Below, in pieces: positions 1,809 to 59,021 of a DNA stretch of 64,000 nt. The stretch comes from Sistotremastrum niveocremeum HHB9708 (Eukaryota > Basidiomycota > Agaricomycetes > Sistotremastrales > Sistotremastraceae). The DNA lies in contig KV419396.1 of assembly GCA_001630475.1 (NCBI GenBank), positions 372,001 to 436,000 of the forward strand, given 5' to 3'. The notes beneath the pieces were generated by a model. It made no database searches, was not told the origin of the DNA, and worked only from the letters and a program-made list of their open reading frames with translations. A program made the position numbers and the translations under genes. Numbering within the stretch: position 1 is the stretch's first letter; each line of letters opens with the position of its first letter.

Positions 1809-1893
1809 CTCGACCACAACAAGTTTTCACGGAGATTAGCGGAAATCGGATCTCGTTTAGCGGCTTCTTGCACTGACAACTGAAAGTACTGAA
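1809..1893. promoter_or_regulatory. Short shared intergenic region between URA3 and PUS7
   Basis: Only 85 bp separate the proposed URA3 ATG on the minus strand from the PUS7 ATG on the plus strand, so both core promoters and 5' leaders must overlap here or lie inside the neighbouring genes. No clear TATA box is visible. Its role as a bidirectional promoter is inferred from position alone. Confidence 0.4.
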
Positions 1894-4765
1894 ATGTCGA
1901 CTACTGCCATTCGGGAACGAGACGAGGATGAGGAGCCTACGAGAGAGGCCAAAAAGGCTCGTACTGATGCGGCTGACACACCGGTCGAGGGTTTGGAGGG
2001 CCAAGCGAAACAAGCGAGTAACAAGACATATCAACTGGACAACCTGCTTCCCCCAAGCCATGTTCTCTTGAACTTGCCCAGGTCAGAGAGCCACTCGGGC
2101 GCATCCCCAATTATACGAGAAGAAGATGTTGGAATATCGGAGTATATCTCGTCTGCGGTGTCTCCTATTGAGGGTATCATCAAACAAAGGTGCGTTTTCT
2201 CGACGGCTGGATTCGCTTTCTCAACAAATTCAGATTCACAGACTTTTTGGTGTTCGAAGTCGATCAGGAAAACAATGTAGTGCATCTGAAGAATCTGGGT
2301 CTGCCAGAATCATCCGATAAACCGAAGGATACCACAGCTAAGCCAGCCAGCGAAACTGCACCCGAACCCACCAGCGAAGCCACCGAAGTTGATTCAGATC
2401 CTCACTCTGCTGAGCAGCCGAAGACCAACGAGGCGGTCGATCAAGCAGAGGCTACCGATGAAGAACCTTGGCCTGCTAGATTCTCAACAAGACTTGAACC
2501 TCTTCTTTCCGAGCGCGCCCTGTTGGAGCTTAAAGAAATGTTCTTACAGGGACCAAACCCTCCACAAATCAAGAGCGAACAGCCATCTGGCTGGAATGGC
2601 TCGGGACAGAGTGCTTCTGTCGGAGATTTGGACCAGACACCAGGTGACGGGGTCAATGTGCCGGAAGAGTCATCAAGTAAAAGCGATAGAAATGCTAAGA
2701 GAGGAAGGGGCGGTCGGGGTCGAGGAGGTCGAGGAGGTGGACGCGAGAGAAAGTCGAAAGCTGCGGAAGATAATCGCAAGGTCATCACTGACGTAAGTGT
2801 TGTGATATACCTAATGCTTGCCCATCCAACGTTGACGCCAAGTGTAGCCTCTTCCATCCAAAGCCACTCGAACTGCGTTGCATACTGCGATTCGAGAATT
2901 GATGGGCGGAAAACTGGACACTGCCACCAATTCGAGCGACTCTAAGACGAACGCTGAAGGGGGGTCTCAGATCATCATTAAATGGGCCTCTCAGAAGCAA
3001 GGTTCTACTCGAGGCGGTCGACCAGACAGAGGAAAATACCCGTCTTCATTAAACTTATATCATTCTTATCTCCATCACAGGACAGAGAGGTTCCTCGGAT
3101 TGGAAGCCGCCGTTCATCCACTTCTCGCTCCAGAAAACCAATCGGGACACACAGGATGCGCTTGCCTACCTGTCGCGGACTTTGCATGTTTCGACAAAAG
3201 ACTTGTCTGTGGCTGGCACGAAAGACAAACGTGGAGTTACAACTCAGCGTGTCGCCCTCCGGAGAGGAGCAAAAACAGTGGAAGATATCTGGAAAATGGC
3301 TAACGGCTTTGGACGTCTTAAAACTATGGAACAAATTCTCAGTGAACGCGGTGACCGTGGGATCAGGATCGGCGATCTCGTGTATAGGCGAGCAGGGCTT
3401 GAGTTAGGGATGTTGAAAGGGAATGCTTTCGTTATCACGTTAAGGTGATACTCCTTTCAATCACTGAAACCAATATTCATTGAACCCAAGGAACGTCAAA
3501 GCGGATTCCGACGAGACGCTTGAAAAGGCGATGAATTCAATGAAAACGGGAGGGTTTATCAATTACTACGGTAATATTCATGCCTAGCGAAAATACTGAG
3601 AATCTCACCAATCACAGGCATGCAGCGATTCGGGACAGCCGCTATTCCAACTCACGCAATAGGACTGGCACTACTTCGAAGCGATTGGGCTGGCGCAGTA
3701 TCTTTGATTTTGCGTCCAAGGCCCGGCGAATACGCTGACGCCGAAGCGGCTCGTCGAGCCTGGCTGGAAGACCGTGATTTGGACAAGGCTCTCCGACTGA
3801 TGCCTCGACGAGTTGTTGCTGAGCGCTGCATCCTGGAAAGTTATCAGAAACAAGGCGGCGAAGATAGAAATGCCATGGGCGCACTCTCTACGGTTGGGAC
3901 CCTTTACCTAGATCTTTCATCGTGACTCATATGCGTCGTAGATCCCTCGAAATCTCCGGCTGATGTATGTGCATGCATATCAGTCATATGTATGGAACGC
4001 CATTGTTTCTGAAAGAATCAAGAAACACGGCAGCACGTCTCCAATTGTCGGAGACCTCGTCTACGAGAAGGACATCCAAGAACCAGAAGTTGTCGATTTA
4101 GATGGTGATATAGACATTGCGGCCGACGCTGAGTCAAAGGAAGTGGAAGAAACACTCCCTACCTCAGAAGATGTTGTTGAGGAAACCGTCTCGAGCCGCA
4201 AGTCGCGAAAGCCTTGGACAGCCCCGAAAGTCAAGGAATTGACAGCAGACGACCTCCCCCATTATTCGATCTTCGATGTGATCATGCCGCTGCCTGGAAA
4301 TGATGTGGCATACCCTGGGGGTGAATTGGGTGAAAGATACAGAGAATTTTTACGGTTGGACGGATTGGATCCCAACAACTTTGTCCGCAAGCAAAAGTCA
4401 GTCATGTCCTTGCGCTGTTGAAGAGTTCAAGCAGTTGACAATGTTATAGGGAGTACACACTTGGAGGTTCATATCGAAACATCCTGCACTTACCCAAGAA
4501 TGTGTCCTGGAAAGTCCTGCGGTATAATGACCCGGATGTCAGTCTGGCCCTGGCAGATGAGGACAAGATCCTTGGATTCGATGCTCCACTAGACGAAGCC
4601 GATGGACGTTTTATGGCACTTCAGATTGAGCTGACCTTGGGAACGGCAGCATATGCTACGATGGCGCTGAGGGAAGTCACCAAGACTGACACCGGTTCAC
4701 AACACCAATCTGCGTTGACCCAATCGTCGGATGACCAAAAATACAGACTATCGGCGACGACTTAA
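1894..4765 (+). CDS. PUS7: TruD-family tRNA/RNA pseudouridine synthase
   Basis: Pus7 isomerises uridine to pseudouridine in tRNA, U2 snRNA and mRNA. The start is the ATG of MSTTAIRERDEDEE. About seven introns are needed; the first is 2190-2233. Family landmarks in order: DVGISEYISS and, across the first intron, FTDFLVFEVD; KATRTALHTAIREL; FIHFSLQKTNRDTQDAL; VAGTKDKRGVTTQRVALR, which carries the catalytic Asp region of TruD enzymes; GGFINYYGMQRFG; MYVHAYQSYVWNAIVSERI; and a C-terminal GSYRNILHLP. Between the N-terminal strand and the catalytic part lies a disordered insert of about 160 residues, with an RGG-like run at 2700-2750. A second acidic insert follows the HAYQSYVWN segment. The splice junction near 3010-3085 is ambiguous, with several GT sites. 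The TAA is at 4763-4765. Confidence 0.93.
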
Positions 4766-5109
4766 AGGTGTGGGTATGCGCAAATTACCTAAAGTTTCCC
4801 ATGGTCTGAATGGGAGAATATGGTGCCAGGGCGCCTTCTCACGTTTGGAACTATAATGTAGAGGCTGTACTGCGTTGAATGAAAGACGTGGCTGAATGTG
4901 AGCTTCGTGATTGGAGACACGTATCTCTACCGAACGGGTCGAATTGAATGCTGACGCGAGCTTGCGGAAGAGTGGCTATATGCGCATTTCTCGGTCACCG
5001 GCGCTGAGCCGGCCAAGGTTACAGAAGTGCACGGCCTCTTATAGTTCGCAGTAACTCAACTTGCATGTAACTCAGCCATCACGTCCTCTCTCTGTAATCC
5101 GTGTCCAGT
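4766..5109. other. Intergenic region without a recognisable feature
   Basis: This 344 bp stretch lies between the PUS7 stop and the ATG of the MFS gene. It should hold the PUS7 3' UTR and the promoter of the transporter. I see no tRNA, repeat or conserved ORF in it. Confidence 0.5.
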
Positions 5110-45697: not shown

Positions 45698-47926
45698 CTA
45701 AGCAGCCACTGGCTCAATGCCCCACCAACGGTTGAAGACGTTGCTTGGATCATATTGGTGCTTAATCTTTTGGAGACGGGGGTAGTTTCCTTGGAAAAGC
45801 TTCTTCGTGGTGCTAGTGGGTAGCGTTTCGTCACTCGCTAGGTAAAGTCAACGACTATAAACCTTAATAATGAATGAAAGAAACGCACCATAGTTGGAAT
45901 ATCCTCTCTCTGTATCAGCTGGGTTGGCGTGTGATCCTTCTCCCTCCACGAAGATTCCTTTGATCGCACTATGGTGCGGGCCACTTAGTCACCACTACTT
46001 TTGTATAGCGCCTACTGCTCGTCCAAAAATGGTAATGAGGCTTATCCCTCTAATAGAAATGCTTGTATTGACGAGAGGAACAAATCTGTAAGAGGGATTC
46101 CGCAGATTCTCAAAACTGACGGAGTTAGAGACTTTTGTCCGGACCAAATTGGCCGGAACCCTTAAATTCCCTTATTGGGCCATCCCGGACATGATGCCCG
46201 ATATTTCCGTGACTCGGATTCGACGTTTTTGGCTCAATTTGAGTGTCCAAAATCTGAAAATTTTCCCAGATCCAAATTGGCCGGGCGCCTAATGCTATAC
46301 ACAAGTAGCGGTGACTAAGCGTCCCGCACCATAGTGATCTTCTTCGCGGTGTCGGCGTATTCTGTGCCATCAGCGTCCCATCTTGCCATGACCAGAACGC
46401 CGACTTGGCTTTTTCTGGCAGGAAAAGCGGTAGCATCAAGTGGAACTGAAGATATCTTTCCGTGTGGGAAAAATTCCAATCCAAACGCAGAGTCGAAGGT
46501 TCCGTCTTCGCTAGTTTCGATTACTTTTTGGAAAGCTGCGACTGCAATTTCAGACTTTGCTTCCTCTTGAGCCGTTCCAGTCATGTAGGTGTAGCGACCG
46601 TGCACAGCAACTGGATTCTATCGCGTTTGTCAGTGTGCTGTCATTATAATGCGAGGAGCAAGCGCACTTGGAATGTATTGATGACGGTGATAGGTACTTC
46701 GCCCGTGTGATCAGCAATTGGACCTTGCCGTTGGTTAGTTTGCAGTGTGTCTGAGCACAAAGAAAGGATTCACCGACGGCAATGAACTCTTTGTATTTCT
46801 CTCTTCCCTCAGCTTCGGTGCCGTTGTAAAACGCATTGAATATAACAACAGGCTACATCGAGGTCAGCAATCTACCTGTTGCGCAATCCAGGATTGTGCA
46901 CAAACCTGGCGACCGGGACCTCGGGTGGCTATCAGAAGCGCACCCTCCTTTGGGGACGCCGTCTTATGCCATCTACGGGCAACTTCGACAACCTCTTTCA
47001 ATTTATCTCCAGAATATATGAGCAAGCCTGCATAAACGGTGGGTCGTTGTGGGTAGCATTTGAGGACAAACTGAGTAACAACCCCGAAATTGCCACCGCC
47101 GCCTGGAAGAAATGTTAATACCAACAATGCACGGATGCAGGTTAGATGTACCTCGCAAAGCCCCTGATGTGAGTTAAGTCAGTACAACCTTCACATTCGG
47201 AGAATCTCGATGCTCACAGAAGAGTTCCGGTTCGGATGTCTCACTCGCAGTGACTATACGACCATCTGCAAGGACAACGGTTGTCTATGATGATACAAAA
47301 TTCAATATAAAGGTCTTGGATACAAACCAACACTAAGTTGTTTACCTCCACTAAATTATCGACAACCAATCCGTGTTCCCCGGAAAGAAAGCCATAACCG
47401 CCTCCCAAAATGAGTCTGGCCACCATATCAGGAGATCCTCAACCCAAAAAGGTGGAATGAAGACATACCCTCCAACGCCAGTATGGTTGACGGTGCCTCC
47501 GGGCTATCAGCGTGAAAGTGAGAGACTGGACCCGTAATTGCGAACGAGCTTACTGTTGCGACACCATTATCGGCACCTGTTTGATCGACGTCTTTCCACA
47601 ATGCCCCACCGCCTACATACAAAACCTGCTTGTCCTCGCTAACGGTAACCTGGTTTAAGTATCGTGAAAGATCAATGACCAGGCCATCTTCGGAAGAGGA
47701 TGCTCCAGAAGCAGAATGACCACCTCCTTTGACGGCGAGGGGAACCTTGTTGGCTACAGCCCATCTGACAATGGCTGAGACAGCCTCGGTGTCCTTGGGA
47801 AATGTGACATATCTAGCTTTTCGCTCGGCGTTTTTCGCCCAGCGAGCGATTGACTCGGTGTAATCAGAGTCGCCAGGTAAGACAAGATCACCATTGAAGA
47901 CAGCTTTGAGGTCGGCGGCTTGTGAC
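45698..47926 (-). CDS. BBE-like FAD-linked oxidoreductase, copy 1, split by a MITE
   Basis: Berberine-bridge-enzyme-type flavoprotein of the VAO/PCMH fold; such enzymes oxidise sugars or secondary metabolites. The ATG gives MSQAADLKAVFNGDLVLPGD, with no signal peptide. KARYVTFPKDTEAVSAIVRW, VKGGGHSASGASSSEDGLVI (His for covalent FAD) and GGTVNHTGVGGLILGGGYGF follow; the usual second-site Cys is not seen, so one covalent link is likely. GGGGNFGVVTQFVLKCYPQR, VAVHGRYTYMT and the C-terminal BBE end VFNRWWGIEPVAA are intact. Between YADTAKKI and AIKGIFVEGEG a 370 bp inverted-repeat element interrupts the exon. A stop follows within the element, and no splice pair that keeps frame was found, so the gene may be inactive. 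Copy 2 upstream is its close paralogue and is continuous here. Confidence 0.82.
45967..46009 (+). repeat. Left terminal inverted repeat of the MITE
   Basis: 43 bp beginning CACTATGGTGCGGGCCACTT. It pairs with the reverse complement of 46294-46336, differing at four positions. Confidence 0.85.
46294..46336 (-). repeat. Right terminal inverted repeat of the MITE
   Basis: 43 bp whose reverse complement begins CACTATGGTGCGGGACGCTT, matching the left end at 39 of 43 positions. Confidence 0.85.
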
Positions 47927-48599
47927 ATGATGCAGGGGATGAGGTGAGGGGGCCAATGCAAGCCAAGCTTATTATATAGGGTATATATAGGGTATAAGAA
48001 GGGACCAGGGACGCTGAGACATGTTCGCGATCGGTGCTGAGACGGCTGTGAAGGGACTCCGGGCCAAGGGCTATTGATATTAGGGAATGTCGGAACAGAG
48101 GCAGTGAAGATTGATGCGATTAGATCAAGCCAGATAGACCTTCGGGCCGTCAGAACGAGAGAAACGTATGGTATCCGTGCCAAAGCATCGGCAACCACAG
48201 GCCTCACAGGCTAAGCTTGAGAAAGTAGAGCACCTTGAATGGTAAGGACAGACAAGCGAGGGACAGGATGCTGGTAGGCTAGGGCATATTGCCATCAGTG
48301 CTGAGGGTCAACGTTCAACGCGTGTTGATGACCGCCGCAGAAGACGAAAGATGGCCGGGTCTGCCATTTAGTGGTGCGTAGACAATTGTGCGTAGATATT
48401 GTTAGTATTTATACCCCGTAATATGACTTCGAAGCAAACAAGTACTAGGTAACGGCAGGCCATAGGAAGATATCATGATTCAAGAAGATAAAGGTGCTAT
48501 AGATGATGATGGCATCAAAAAGGTCGGCTCTAGCAGAAGGACGAGTTAGATCGAAGCGGCATAGCTCGGTTCAATCTCTATCTCGGAATATGCAATAAA
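47927..48599. other. Spacer between the two BBE-like genes
   Basis: This 673 bp spacer holds the promoter of copy 1 (a TATA box at 47982-47989 on the minus strand) and the 3' UTR of copy 2. A short direct repeat, GTGCGTAGA, occurs twice near 48374-48400. No gene is supported; the frame that extends copy 1 upstream to 48207 has no conserved content. Confidence 0.5.
47982..47989 (-). promoter_or_regulatory. TATA box of BBE copy 1
   Basis: TATATATA on the minus strand, 56-63 bp upstream of the ATG of copy 1, within TTATACCCTATATATACCC. The position suits a fungal TATA box and matches a similar one in front of copy 2. Confidence 0.5.
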
Positions 48600-50474
48600 T
48601 TAGGCAGCTGCTGGCTCAATACCGTACCAGCGGAAGAAGACGTTGTTACGATCATATTGATGTTTAACTCTTTGGAGACGAGCGTAGTTTCCTTTGAAGA
48701 TATTCTTAGTACTGCTTGCCGGGAGTTTCTCTTCGCTCGCTGAACATCAAGTCAGAATCAAGTTCGTATGAAAGAACGAATCACATACTGTAGTTTGAAT
48801 ATCCAGGCTCAGGATCAACCAGACCTGCTTGCTTGCTTGCACCCTGGATAAAAACATCCTTGATCGAACGGATCTCATTCTTTGCCCTGTCAGCAAATTG
48901 CTGGCCCGCTTCGTCCCATCTCGCCATAAATAGCACACCGATTTGACTTTTCCTCGCAGGGAACGCAGTTGCTTCAACCGGAACAGAGGCTATTTTTTCA
49001 TGAGGATAGAGCTCTAGGATGAATGCAGTGTCGACAGCCCCATCTTCGCTCGTTTTCAGGACTTCGTGGTAGGCCGAAACACAAATGTCAGGATCTGGGC
49101 CCGCTTGGGACGTCGCTGTCATGTAGGTGTACCGACCATGTACAGCAACGGTATTCTTCCATCTCACTTCAGTGCCAGCGGCACTTCTGAAAATTAAGTG
49201 ATCGACGTACTTGGAACGTGTTGATAACTGGAACAGGGACCTCCGCAGCGGTATTGACAATCGGACCTGAGAACATGGTGAGTCACATAGTCACTCATAG
49301 TGGGAGATAGTATACCAAGGGCGATGAAATCCTTGAACTTTTCTTCGCCATCAGATACCTCGCCATTGTAGAATACATTGATGGCTACGACAGGCTATAT
49401 ATAGTTTAAGATCAGTAGATACTTTTCATGAAATGTGGACCAACCTCACGGGCAGGGCTGCGTGCAGCCGTCAGAAGAACAGCTTCTTTAGCAGACGGGC
49501 CTGCATTCCACCATTTGCGGGCAACTTCGATGACCTCCTTGATTCTTTCTCCAGGATAGAACAGTCGGCCGCCATAAACTGTGGGTCGCTGGGGGTAGCA
49601 TTTTAATACGAATTGGGTCACAACTCCGAAATTGCCGCCTCCGCCTACGACAGATATCTCATGAAAGGTGATCGTGAAATGAGACGCCATTAATACCTCG
49701 AAGAGCCCCTGGGAAGATATGCGTGAGTATGCTATGGAGGCTCGAAGATTATTGAATCGTCTCACAAAATAGATCCGGCTCTGAAATTTCACTAGCAGTG
49801 ACAATACGACCATCGGCAAGGACAATGGTCACCTATAAACATTAGATGTTTTGGTCCTCGTTTGAGGAGATATTATTCACCTCCACAAGGTTGTCAACCA
49901 CCATTCCGTACTCCCCGGACAAATATCCATATCCACCCCCAAGAATGAGTCTTTAAGTAGAATAAGTGACCCGATAGCTAACAACCGCCTGTCGGTCTAG
50001 AAAACGCACCCTCCAACGCCAGTGTGATTGACGGTGCCTCCGGGCTGTCATTTCTACTGCTGAGGAAGAGGCACCGAAAAAAAGGCAGCATGAACTGACT
50101 GTTGCCACGCCGTTTTCGACACCTGCTCTATCAACGTCTTCCCACAGTGCACCACCGCCTATAAAGAAGACTTTCTTATCTTCACTGACAGTGACTTTGT
50201 TTAGGTGTCGTCCAAGATCGATAACTAGACCATCTTCGGAAGAGGAGGAACCAGAGGCAGAATGCCCACCACCTTTGACTGCAATAGGTATATTGTTAGA
50301 ATCAGCCCAGTTGACGATAGCTGAGACGGCCTGTGTGTCTTTTGGAAATGTGACATATCGTGCCTTACGCTCGGCATTTATGGCCCAGCGAGCAATAGCA
50401 TTCGCATAATCGGGGTCACCAGGCAAGACGAGTTCGCCATTGAAAGCAGCTCTAAGTTCGGCGTCCAGTGACAT
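48600..50474 (-). CDS. BBE-like FAD-linked oxidoreductase, copy 2
   Basis: Tandem paralogue of the gene at 45698-47926, with the same exon order and no insertion. The ATG gives MSLDAELRAAFNGELVLPGD. KARYVTFPKDTQAVSAIVNW, VKGGGHSASGSSSSEDGLVI with the FAD-linking His, PGGTVNHTGVGGLILGGGYG, GGGNFGVVTQFVLKCYPQRP, AINVFYNGE, VAVHGRYTYMTATSQ, FPARKSQIGVLFMARWDEAG and GASKQAGLVDPEPGYSNY follow. It ends NNVFFRWYGIEPAAA with a TAA at 48600-48602. About ten introns. No signal peptide is seen, so an intracellular location is likely, unlike secreted GOOX enzymes. The substrate is unknown. Nearly identical motif spacing in both copies points to a local duplication. Confidence 0.87.
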
Positions 50475-51448
50475 GGTCGAGATGTTAACAAGGCGTAGGG
50501 GTGAAAGATGGTAGCGGGTCGAAGGACTGATGTGGGTGCATTATATATAGCAAAGAGAAGCGTTCAGGAACAGATAAGAAGCTTGGTGTTTAACATCACC
50601 TCTTCGAACGCCGAAACCATCTGATATGTCGAATGGACAAGTTGTGATGCACGATCGTGGTTATCAGCTTCACAGATACCGATAGAGTGTCGGCACTTCA
50701 TTCGGTCCGTTGCGATCAAGGTACAGATGTCTTTGCACCATCTTGCCAGTGGAAGCGACAGTCCAGACCTCGCGCCGCACAAGCAAAGAGCAGATCCGTA
50801 TCTGAGCTGAAGACAGGCAAAGCAGCGTTCGAGTTGGGTTACTAGTAGTAGTATGGATACGCGGCCGTGTTTCGAAACTTGCGTGACATTCAAGTTGGCA
50901 TCAAGCTTCGACGACCAAGAACGCTTCCCATTGTAGTAATCCAGTTGCATGTATCACCCAGTTAGTTCAACTGCATCAGCTCAGAACTCGTCCGTATGCA
51001 CAGTCATTCGGGGAGAAGGAACGGGTTATTTTCGGGTCGCGCTTCGTTCATGCCCGACGGGCTTCACTCCATGCCGCTCTTGTTAGAATAAATGCCTCAT
51101 TCGTGTCGCAGTCCTAGTAAATACCCACAATAGCGCAGGTTTGAGAGCTCGGGTACTTATTGGAGACTCGATCCAGAGAATTTATCCAGACGTTCGGTAT
51201 CGGTATCGTTCTGGGACATCACATCAGGATCCTGAGGAGACAACAATACCGGAAATAATCGTTCATTGTAGGATACAAAGGAATAAAATCAGATCATTTA
51301 TCTAAACAACAGCGATGTGCCAACCTTGTGCCTGGACAACAATGACTGGGTGTGCATGTGTCTCGAGCAGCATAGACATGCCAAGGATCAGCGCATATTC
51401 CTACACAGACTTCATGGGCTTACGTTCATTGACCAGTCAATGACTCTA
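50475..51448. other. Intergenic region, 974 bp
   Basis: The largest gene-free stretch of the window, between the BBE copy 2 start and the RBM42-like stop. It holds the copy 2 promoter near 50475-50560. A 128-codon minus-strand frame at 50564-50950 resembles nothing I know and has no splice context. The rest (50950-51448) shows no repeat, RNA gene or frame that I can support. Confidence 0.5.
50542..50549 (-). promoter_or_regulatory. TATA box of BBE copy 2
   Basis: TATATATA on the minus strand, 68-75 bp upstream of the ATG of copy 2. Both paralogues therefore share a TATA-type promoter layout. Confidence 0.5.
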
Positions 51449-54967: not shown

Positions 54968-57900
54968 CTATCGCAGTAGTCGTTGAACTTCTGATCTATC
55001 GACGGCAACCACGGAAGTTTTGCGAGCGAATTTTGAGGGCCCGAATGCGCCTTCCGGGTTGTGAGCGGCTGTCAATGTCAACTTAGCATTGCCCTCTCGG
55101 TTCAAACACAAATGCTCACCTGCCGCTAACGACAACGATTTAGCTCTTTCTAGGACAAGACTATTCCGCTTCATTCGTCCTGGTGTTTCGGCATGCTTGA
55201 ATCCCAGCTGACCTTCCTGGACGGACTCGGTGCGTCCGGATTGAGAGTGTCGTAAAGACCGGTTCAAAGACTGTACGCGAGACAGGACAGCCCCATGAGT
55301 GGAGGCGGAGAGCTCATCTGCTATGGGGGGCAGAGGTGGAACAGGCGGGATAGATGAGGAAGGGCGCATCAGAGTGTCAGACCTGGGGCGAACTCGGCCA
55401 ACAGACGCATGACTGGGTGCCGGAGGCCGCTTTTCATCTCCAGAATGCACCGTCGATGAATTCGCTAATGAGGAAGGGGTCGACGTGAAGCCATGAGGAA
55501 AGACCATGTCGTGGAGCTCGGAGTGACTGCGCCTCCGTGGAACGCGGTTTGTCACGGTTATGGCGATGGCCGTGCTATCCAAATGACTGGTCACAGTTAA
55601 ATTGGCTTGCGTGCTAGGGACATCAGATGACACTTGAGCAAGAAGTTCCCTGTCTGCCATGACATGGTACCCAACCGTGTCATTCGACAGTGTATCGGGA
55701 TAAATCTCGATGAAGGGATAGACTGGAGGATCTGGGATGATGGTAAGAGATGAACACAGTAGCTCTGTGTTTAAACTCACAGAGGGAAAACTTTGGATAT
55801 TCTGGTTTGATCGTCGTCGACAATTCCAGAGAGGGAAGAACGTCGTCGATGACACAGGGAGCAACAGAGGGAGCGACGACCAGAGGATAAGGCTCCACAA
55901 ACGGATACACCGCTGGGTAAATGACCATATTTGGATACGAAGGTGCCAAGCTAGTATTACAATATGTTCCAGGTGCAGTGATACGATCTGTGAAAAAGAA
56001 CTATAAGCCTCGGTGGAAGTTCAAAAGTAGAAAGGCAAACCATTATCCGGTTGTTGCGTTGGTAGAAGTTGGTTTATTCGTTGTTCCGTGTGACCTTGAT
56101 TATAGGGATCGAGGTGAGGGTATACAGGAGGATAAGGTAGGACGCATGGATATGCTGGAGTCAAGCTAGTTGTGATTAGATCTCGCGAGACTTCGTGATT
56201 GTGAGGCCGGTGGATATTAGTGGTCGACATTGACATTGGAGGATAGATTATCAGGTCAGGGTATATCGGAGGATCTAGACCATGACATGATATCAGGAAC
56301 AACAAGCCTGAGAAGGACGGAGGGCTCACAAAGAATGAACGTAGGATACTGGGTCCGCAATATCCAAGGAGATTCGAGATTTGGCAGAGGCGCCCGAAGT
56401 GCTGAAGTTTCGAGGCCTTCACTCGTTTCATTGACGCCGAAGCATGAGCCTTCACAATATATATCGAAGTATGGGTACTGAGGTGGATCTATCATAAACA
56501 GTAAGTAGAAGGATATGACAGGAAAGTAAATTCACGAACAAATATTGAAATTTGGATATACCACCGTTGTGAGCACGTCTTGAGACATTTCCGAAACTGG
56601 TGCTCGGATCGATGGAGAATCAAGAAGGGCGGACATGGGAGGGTAGATGATGAGATGAGGGTACACCGGTAGATCTTTGGTGATCCTTTCAGCATCGGTT
56701 TTGAGATTCGTTAAATTTATAGGACTTACATATATTAAAGAAAGGGTATCGGTCCTCAAGTTGAACAACATCCGGAGAGTCTGCGTTCGAGAGACGCCTG
56801 CTGGATGGATGATCAATGAAACGGTCGTCAAAAGCCATGTAAAGCTTACGTAGTTGCAGACAGACAACGTTGCACATTTTGCATCGCCACTTCACTCGAG
56901 AGGGTGGCACTGGCACCCAGCGGGGACGGCATTTGCACAGCAATGGGTGGGTAGATGGAGAGTTCGGGATACAGCGAAGGATCTGGATTGAGGAAATGAG
57001 CAAGGTAGGTCCGCCTAGACAACAACAACTTACAAAGATCGAAATAAGGATATACACTAAACGGATTAGGATTGGGCTCAGGCTATATATATCTCTCAGG
57101 TGTAGTCTCTTGCGTATGGGAAGAGCTCGGCTTACCACTGGTGCGTGATCATCGTGAATCACAGCATCTTTGGACGGTCTCACATGTTGATCAACTTCAT
57201 CGTGAGGCGTCGAAATCTCGTATGGTATGTATGGCCAAACTTGCTTAAAGACTCCAATCTCGACATTCGATGATGTGGTATCAACGACTGGAATGTCGTT
57301 AGAGTGATGCTCCGAGAATGCTTGGGCCAGTCCTTCGACCGTCAGCGGCACTGGATGAGCCGAAAGCGGGTGTGGATATGTTGAGGGTGATACCGGAGCG
57401 CTTCCTCTACTTCGGTGCGCGAGATCCACCGAGGGTGGTCGCGAATGGATAGTAGATGAGAATGACGATGTGGGCGAAGGAGGTCCCCACGATGTGCAAG
57501 TCGACGGTGTACATGGCACACTTTCGATCGCTCTCCAGGCAATGTCAGGCGATGGTAACCTATAAGGATCAGGCAATAAATCTTCCTCTGCTGTGCTATC
57601 GTCGGCGCCGAACGAAGTTGCAATGGAAGGCGTATTGCAAACTGAACCGCGCAGACGTTCTGGCAGATCAAGAGAATCTAATGGGGAAGGCCACTGATTT
57701 GGTTCAGTGTCGCCGCTCGGAGGGCCATACGAAGAAATTGACCATCTGAATTCATTGAGGTCGAGTTCCCGAGCGGACTCTGGAGAGTCATCAGACGCAT
57801 CTAGCGAGATGATTATGGGGGCGGATGATGGATCTGGGGATACAGGAACGGAATTGGGAGAATCTGCAGCGTCCATAGTGGTTCGCCATAGGGCTGAACG

Positions 57901-59021
57901 AGCACTGGCTGGAGTCAAGGTAGACTCTCGCCAGGATTGGACCACCGACGCTAGGTCGTTTCCACCGCCATCTGGTTGTTCGTCGACTTGAACAACAGGA
58001 GAGAGCGAGTGAGTGTGCTGAGGCCGTTGGCTAAGAGGGTTCAAAGCGCTGCGCCCATTCGGAGACCGAACTGGCAGTCTGGATACAGAGGAAGATGCGC
58101 TGGGAGGGCGTTTCTCGACCAAGGAAAGCCTTCGAGGAACATGTCGATGTTTGGGCGATGATCCCCGCGATCCCCGTTCATTGGTCTGATTGGGTGCCGC
58201 CCATTCTCCATCAGCTTCGGTAACAGAGAACGCAGCGTCGCGCGTGGCTGGTATGGTCGACAGGGACCCTCTTGGGGTTTCAAACATCTGGCGACGCTGC
58301 GCATTCAGCCAAGTATCGAACCATCGAGCTCTTCGAGGATCAACATCAAACTCAATCCAACCACCAATGGGAAGGGGTGACTGGGGCGATGGTGCGAAAG
58401 GTTCGTCGAAAAGATGACTCCAAAGAAGTGACCAGCTTTCATCGGAAATACGAGGGGGTTCAAGGGAAGAAGGACTCGAGACGTGCAGGTACAAGCACAA
58501 CCCAGAAGTGCTTGGAAAGTTGAATTCGCGAGCAATAGCAGTTAACTGGTGATACATCTGGATAAGTGTGTAGAGTCAGATGATCGATCAGCATGTCTTT
58601 GGAGAATGGAGCGCACCGTCGACATCAGAGGCATAAGAATACCGCTTCCAAATCGAGTGGGCGGCCCTACGGACAGCGTATGCCCAAGGGACGAGAGTCC
58701 ATGCGGTAAAGAGGGCGGTGGGAGGACAACGACAAGCCATTTCGATGTTCTTGTCTGGGTACGTGTATCACGTATACCATGCTGTCCATAAGAAAGGGTC
58801 GAAACTTTTTTTACACGGGAGAAAGGCGAATCAAAGGGTGGTAGAGCGTCATCGTCGTCGTCGGCAACATAAGAGGCATGGAATCTCTCGGCCCCATGTT
58901 GCGAGGGGACATCTGTTAGTTCTGAGTCTGGCGGACTGGACGACTTTGGGTGTAGTTCAGCCCTGCGTATATCTGATGGAACCCGCCTCGCAAAAGGTAG
59001 CCTGGATGTCAAATGCGACAT
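54968..59021 (-). CDS. Large basidiomycete protein with C-terminal Tyr-Pro exon array
   Basis: No known function. The first exon starts MSHLTSRLPFARRVPSDIRR and holds SKWLVVVLPPPSLPHGLSSL and TRFGSGILMPLMST. The second, after an intron, is long: YHQLTAIAREFNFPSTSGLC, LYLH, RISDESWSLLWSHLF and GGWIEFDVDPRRARWFDTWL. As I recall, this N-terminal half is conserved in many basidiomycetes without assigned function. About 350 Ser/Pro-rich residues follow. From 57082 to 55690 small exons encode repeats of the type YPPxYPx(L/F)xIYPP. The last exon (55731-54968) is a Ser/Arg-rich tail ending AVDRSEVQRLLR at 54968-54970. No membrane helix or signal peptide is seen. PPxY and YPxL motifs suggest a trafficking or ubiquitin-ligase scaffold; this is inference. 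Confidence 0.72.
55690..57082 (-). repeat. Exon-encoded Tyr-Pro repeat array
   Basis: Exons 57082-57034, 56982-56850, 56797-56730, 56674-56540, 56488-56330, 56274-56041, 55987-55781 and the start of 55731-54968. Most units run from (Y)P.YPx(L/F)x(I/L)YPP through a variable middle to YPx(F)x(I/L)Y. Clear units: YPELSIYPP, YPHLIIYPP, YPDLIIYPP, YPPVYPHLDPY, YPPQYPYFDIY, YPNMVIYPAVYPF and YPPVYPFIEIYP. At five exon joints the intron is in phase 1 and splits the tyrosine codon as T|AT. Exons of 135, 159, 234 and 207 nt are all multiples of three. Confidence 0.8.

Follow-up and report, generated by a model that had tools for sequence, protein, structure and literature searches.

Which part of a dense Tyr-Pro array is kept, and what might read it, is the question raised by a gene in the 64,000-nucleotide stretch of Sistotremastrum niveocremeum DNA that was analysed as a whole (the window). 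Basidiomycetes appear to be without the Rim8 arrestin of ascomycetes, and their pH signalling is described as using sequence-unrelated parts (PMC12345238). Because Rim8 is apparently missing there, unnamed motif-rich scaffolds are candidate missing links. A sequence-only reading of this gene had proposed a multivalent scaffold for ESCRT, Rsp5 or pH signalling, in which PPxY and YPxL motifs interleave in repeated YPPxYPx(L/F/I) units.

The gene extent given by that reading, 54968-59021, was borne out on the minus strand, with the ATG at 59021 and the stop at 54968. We built the splice model by hand, using GT-AG introns of 49-59 bases and a single open frame, and it predicts from the sequence ten exons and a protein of 1192 aa:

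59021-58617, minus strand, predicted exon 1
58557-57136, minus strand, predicted exon 2
57082-57034, minus strand, predicted exon 3
56982-56850, minus strand, predicted exon 4
56800-56730, minus strand, predicted exon 5
56674-56540, minus strand, predicted exon 6
56488-56330, minus strand, predicted exon 7
56274-56041, minus strand, predicted exon 8
55987-55781, minus strand, predicted exon 9
55731-54968, minus strand, predicted exon 10
58288..58745, minus strand, N-terminal conserved domain (aa 93-225) with intron 1 inside it, common to a paralogue on contig C21
54968..55699, minus strand, C-terminal tail with RRRS, RKTS and a PPVPPLPP stretch, read from the spliced protein

The 1192-aa protein matched no Pfam family at E up to 1, and exon 2 had no match in NCBIfam. 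With no arrestin domain among these results, the protein was rejected as a Rim8/PalF arrestin. The RRRS and RKTS of the C-terminal tail are presumably phosphorylation-like sites. Lysine is scarce, with two residues in the 340-residue array region (against 11 Arg, 15 Asp and 15 Glu) and 17 in the whole protein. An aspartyl protease frame flanks the gene on one side; on the other lie plus-strand frames at about 53.7-54.7 kb with no Pfam match, followed by ribosomal protein L5. Elsewhere in the window, two minus-strand FAD_binding_4 frames (47431-48210 and 49956-50540) lie within about 3.1 kb and are perhaps tandem duplicates.

The array occupies window positions 57052-55700 (aa 620-949) and comprises, once the gene is spliced, seven copies of a 17-residue block with the shared format YPxΦx(L/I)-YPPΦ-YPxΦx(L/I)-Y:

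56951..57052, minus strand, block 1, aa 620-636, YPYFDLYPSLYPELSIY, intron 3 within Tyr 626
56643..56748, minus strand, block 2, aa 688-704, YPFFNIYLPVYPHLIIY, intron 5 within Tyr 694
56457..56558, minus strand, block 3, aa 733-749, YPNFNIYPPQYPYFDIY, intron 6 within Tyr 739
56243..56348, minus strand, block 4, aa 786-802, YPTFILYPPIYPDLIIY, intron 7 within Tyr 792
56102..56152, minus strand, block 5, aa 833-849, YPCVLPYPPVYPHLDPY, no internal intron
55887..55937, minus strand, block 6, aa 887-903, YPNMVIYPAVYPFVEPY, no internal intron, neither PPxY nor YPx[LI]
55700..55799, minus strand, block 7, aa 933-949, YPKFSLYPPVYPFIEIY, intron 9 within Tyr 939

The Tyr of columns 1, 7, 11 and 17 and the Pro of columns 2 and 12 form an invariant skeleton, present in 42 of 42 cells across the seven blocks; the Tyr spacing of 6-4-6 never changes, and the block is pseudo-symmetric. 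Hydrophobic residues (V, I, L, M or F) fill columns 4 and 14 in every block, columns 6 and 10 in six of the seven and column 16 in five, while columns 3, 5 and 13 are variable. The flanking columns are variable as well (entropy 1.7-2.8 bits, ceiling 2.81), with the exception of the column directly after the block, where five of the seven copies have Pro (1.15 bits). The linkers, of 28-51 residues, vary in length and sequence. Scanning the protein with the block profile returned seven copies at 43-53 bits and no eighth copy, the next best place scoring 8.2; each block scored 25-42 bits against a profile of the six others, and shuffled proteins reached 13.1 bits at most against the full seven-block profile. 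Moreover, YP occurs 26 times in the protein, against a mean of 5.3 and a maximum of 15 in 5000 shuffles of the whole protein. The Tyr-Pro array is real and lies beyond chance. A literature search found no described fungal YPPxYP array.

The codons tell how the array has been kept. Of the 42 codon pairs that the invariant Pro columns (2 and 12) provide, 13 (31%) consist of the same codon, compared with 27% expected from random draws on the Pro codon use of the gene itself. Since the codons are scrambled and the residues invariant, selection keeps the protein, and silent sites that are saturated under unmoved residues speak against a recent expansion and against simple low complexity. That the array is a low-complexity or recently expanded repeat, devoid of site-specific function, is therefore highly improbable. 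Such a repeat would account for the Tyr/Pro richness, the repetition and the absence of the array from the two frames read of the C21 paralogue, but not for saturated silent sites beside 42 of 42 kept skeleton cells, nor for a 17-residue unit whose frame is fixed while the linkers around it vary.

Next, we asked which short motif is kept. All the motifs listed by the sequence-only reading, namely PPQY, PPIY, PPVY (twice), YPEL, YPHL (twice) and YPDL, are present in the spliced protein, as are YPSL, YPPI (twice) and YPFI, giving eight YPx[LI] and four PPxY. In 5000 whole-protein shuffles, YPx[LI] had a mean of 0.67 and a maximum of 5; PPxY likewise had a mean of 0.67 and a maximum of 5, so that some shuffles reach the observed four. 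However, neither motif runs through the array. PPxY is found in four of the seven blocks (3, 4, 5 and 7), its would-be position reading PSLY in block 1, LPVY in block 2 and PAVY in block 6; YPx(L/I) is found in five (1, 2, 4, 5 and 7). Block 6 (YPNMVIYPAVYPFVEPY) has neither, yet it keeps every Tyr. The proposal that interleaved PPxY and YPxL are the kept sites thus fits poorly.

The outcome of shuffling within the blocks depends on what is held fixed. When Tyr was fixed and Pro was moved, YPx(L/I) was enriched (7 against 1.9, P = 0.0016) and there was no enrichment of PPxY (4 against 2.0, P = 0.11). With both Tyr and Pro fixed and the other residues reshuffled, YPx(L/I) fell to chance level (7 against 7.5 expected), and it was below expectation (7 against 10.7) when hydrophobic residues were dealt among hydrophobic sites only. 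YPx3(L/I), present at 11 of 14 half-sites, exceeded its expectation of 4.2 with Tyr and Pro fixed (0 of 20000 shuffles) and of 6.2 in the hydrophobics-only shuffle (P = 0.0006), counts that describe what is kept and are not independent trials, because the motif was chosen with the blocks in view and all seven have a common origin. Furthermore, column 4 holds F, V or M, never L or I, in all seven blocks, which argues against a plain YPXL/I reading. The half-site that is kept is YPxΦx(L/I)Y; the constant part is the Tyr/Pro skeleton and not PPxY or YPxL. Of the repeat unit that had been proposed, the array itself stands, and the YPPxYPx(L/F/I) unit gives way to a 17-residue block whose second Tyr is spliced together in five of seven cases.

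Five blocks (1, 2, 3, 4 and 7) have a phase-1 intron that splits the codon of this Tyr behind the first base, as T|AT; in blocks 5 and 6 the codon is unbroken. Because the second Tyr of these five blocks forms only by splicing, the whole 17-residue unit is not visible until the exons are joined. All 15 forward joins of a T|AT donor to a later acceptor, including the five normal joins, keep the frame and a full block. Accordingly, omission of exon 6, exon 7, exons 4 and 5 together, exons 8 and 9 together or longer runs is safe for both frame and block; exon 4, 5, 8 or 9 singly is not such an omission. Skipping of exons, or their gain and loss, could thus tune the valency of the array. Among the ten pairs of the five T|AT introns, 3-9 (z 4.0), 7-9 (z 3.0) and 3-5 (z 2.5) are more alike than shuffles, and the remaining seven pairs have z below 2; these values lend weak support to an origin of the introns from one duplicated intron.

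The rest of the genome (34.7 Mb in 111 contigs) holds one clear paralogue (C21:346500-355000, L011, frame 1943-5047), matching the N-terminal domain at E 1.4e-8 in the genome search and E 4.5e-8 by blastp. The N-terminal domain, which carries a long insert in the paralogue, is all that the two proteins have in common. The 1035-aa frame of the paralogue matched no Pfam family either, so that Pfam offers no name for the shared domain, and AlphaFold gave the N-terminal domain of the paralogue a low mean pLDDT of 44.9. The two frames read contain three and five YP, no YPx(L/I) and no Tyr-Pro array, and the block pattern YPxΦxΦYP has no place on C21. As the paralogue is without the array, the array was either gained by one copy or lost from the other.

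Searches for a second array in the genome found none. The pattern YPxΦxΦYP, which misses half-blocks split by introns, occurred at 24 places, five of them within the array gene, and the reversed control pattern at 23. A brief look at the 19 places elsewhere revealed a stop inside the match in three (L063, L068 and L073), no two places close together and no further array. Two of these places (L059 and L074, at C8:711706 and C40:92782) lie in near-identical frames with YPILTIYP and YPILAIYP, unrelated to the array, which we take to be copies of one mobile element of the KDZ type. A protein search with the joined blocks hit the array gene at six places (E 3.9e-11 to 0.013) and elsewhere in the genome two chance-level places only (E 1.7 and 1.8); another genome search returned the array gene alone. 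Collections that are non-fungal by description yielded no relative of the family, and such negatives are uninformative on its spread: a 100-aa piece of the N-terminal domain had none among viral contigs, a two-sequence alignment of the domain gave 87 pattern matches and 0 confirmed among genome contigs, tblastn against plasmids gave none, and the best match among solved structures had E 0.31.

Candidate readers for both motif types are encoded in the same genome. Contig C48 encodes a protein with a BRO1 domain and a V domain (ALIX_LYPXL_bnd, E 2.6e-44 for the V domain). A second protein of this architecture was not found with part of the C48 protein as the query, in a loose first pass that may miss split or diverged genes. 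Contig C2 encodes a second BRO1-domain protein, which we take to resemble PalC. An FY pair in the second arm of the C48 V domain was matched by alignment to yeast Bro1 (E 6.3e-5) and, weakly, to human ALIX (E 0.051); it presumably includes the position of ALIX Phe676. This residue is described as required for binding of p6 by ALIX (PMC2397435). For WW ligands, one stretch of contig C1 combines three WW domains with two HECT pieces, a candidate WW-HECT ligase.

The genome also encodes a PacC/Rim101 homologue, found on contig C7 (C7:510300-514800, L077) as two pieces of 65 and 66% identity to a zinc-finger-like query. The array protein is thereby excluded as PacC itself. In the unspliced frames 656-1255, 1146-1481, 1490-1822 and 1855-3438 of this homologue, there are three YP and no YPx(L/I); PacC of Aspergillus nidulans is described with two YPXL/I sites for PalA (PMC4832277). 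It is conceivable, and quite unlikely, that PacC of this lineage lost its Rim20-docking YPXL/I sites and that the array protein supplies them in trans, as a many-site tunable strip. On this long shot, the strip would join a Rim20-type protein, perhaps together with Rsp5, for pH signalling or endosomal sorting, and the choice of in-frame exons retained would fix the number of sites. A point against docking in trans is that Rim20 reportedly binds PEST domains, which are found in Rim101 of Cryptococcus neoformans too (PMC2824755).

We consider that the array protein has about an even chance of being a multivalent docking scaffold for a putative partner. Of the proposed scaffold, multivalent docking fits, and PPxY and YPxL as its kept sites fit poorly. 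The scaffold would be composed of the N-terminal domain, a long region rich in Ser, Thr and Pro that is probably disordered, and seven modules of the same format, each with two half-sites YPxΦx(L/I)Y linked via PPΦ. We infer that the modules may serve as extended peptide ligands for a partner recognising Tyr-Pro and the Leu/Ile five residues after Tyr, and seven double half-sites on flexible linkers would then provide high avidity and clustering. The leading putative partner is the ALIX-type V-domain protein (Bro1/Rim20 class) on C48, since the array shares its L/I-specific spacing with YPX3L late domains. A V-domain partner accounts for half of the weight given to docking and is itself a tentative assignment. 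Such a partner does not, from what is known of V-domain ligands, explain why Tyr 7, 11 and 17 are invariant as well. AlphaFold predicted no regular structure for a 68-residue array exon (mean pLDDT 51.7, with two sequences only), a low-confidence result that would fit a peptide ligand and says little either way.

Two other readings bear on the same blocks. The block might be a structural unit, two short strands of alternating hydrophobics around a YPPΦ turn, through which the protein would cluster homotypically with no dedicated reader. The invariant 6-4-6 Tyr spacing and the pseudo-symmetry of the block, with hydrophobics at 4, 6, 10, 14 and 16, speak for such self-assembly, as does conservation that covers the whole block rather than one short motif. 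It is nevertheless doubtful, as the same prediction for the array exon contains neither strand nor helix, the blocks are Pro-rich and the linkers differ in length and sequence. Alternatively, the PPxY sites could recruit several copies of a WW-HECT ligase of the Rsp5 type and make the protein a ubiquitin-ligase adaptor. The four PPxY exceed the whole-protein expectation of 0.67, block 2 carries LPVY, a form also accepted by WW domains, and a protein with three WW domains and HECT is encoded in the genome. In Cryptococcus neoformans, Rsp5 is described as activating the Rim pathway via Rra2, which bears motifs but has no arrestin domains (PMC12345238). However, PPxY is present in four of the seven blocks only, without enrichment in the within-block shuffle of non-Tyr residues (P = 0.11), PSLY and PAVY stand in its place in blocks 1 and 6, and the two Lys of the 340-residue array region leave few nearby ubiquitination sites. 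The adaptor role is thus unlikely.

Whichever partner a docking scaffold might have, the array illustrates clearly how the copy number of a composite short motif can shift by whole exons with the motif intact, making valency easy to study. If the partner is of the Bro1/Rim20 type, the protein would be an unusually multivalent natural V-domain ligand.

Among known systems, Rra2 is described as the Cryptococcus neoformans functional analogue of Rim8, with two predicted membrane spans (PMC12345238). By description, the array protein is like it in being a basidiomycete protein with short motifs and not arrestin domains; Rra2 acts with Rsp5 and ESCRT (PMC12345238). In the array protein, by comparison, the most hydrophobic 19-residue window scores 1.56, at aa 905 in the array region. 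The usual cut-off for a membrane span in such a window is 1.6, and this value lies just under it. The likeness to the PacC ligands of PalA/Rim20 lies in Tyr-Pro followed by a hydrophobic residue. PalA is described as binding two YPXL/I motifs in PacC72 (PMC4832277, PMC10301932), with Tyr, Pro and Leu/Ile all crucial (PMC10301932), whereas the array has seven double half-sites, with F/V/M as the third residue beyond the first Tyr and the L/I-specific position five residues after Tyr (n = 3). The same n = 3 spacing is found in the YPXnL late domain of HIV-1 p6, LYPLTSL (PMC2397435), and ALIX is described as binding syntenin, a cellular ligand, around Phe676 (PMC9531180). Unlike p6, the array is part of a host fungal protein and presents 11 such sites over seven blocks, with an invariant Tyr on both sides.
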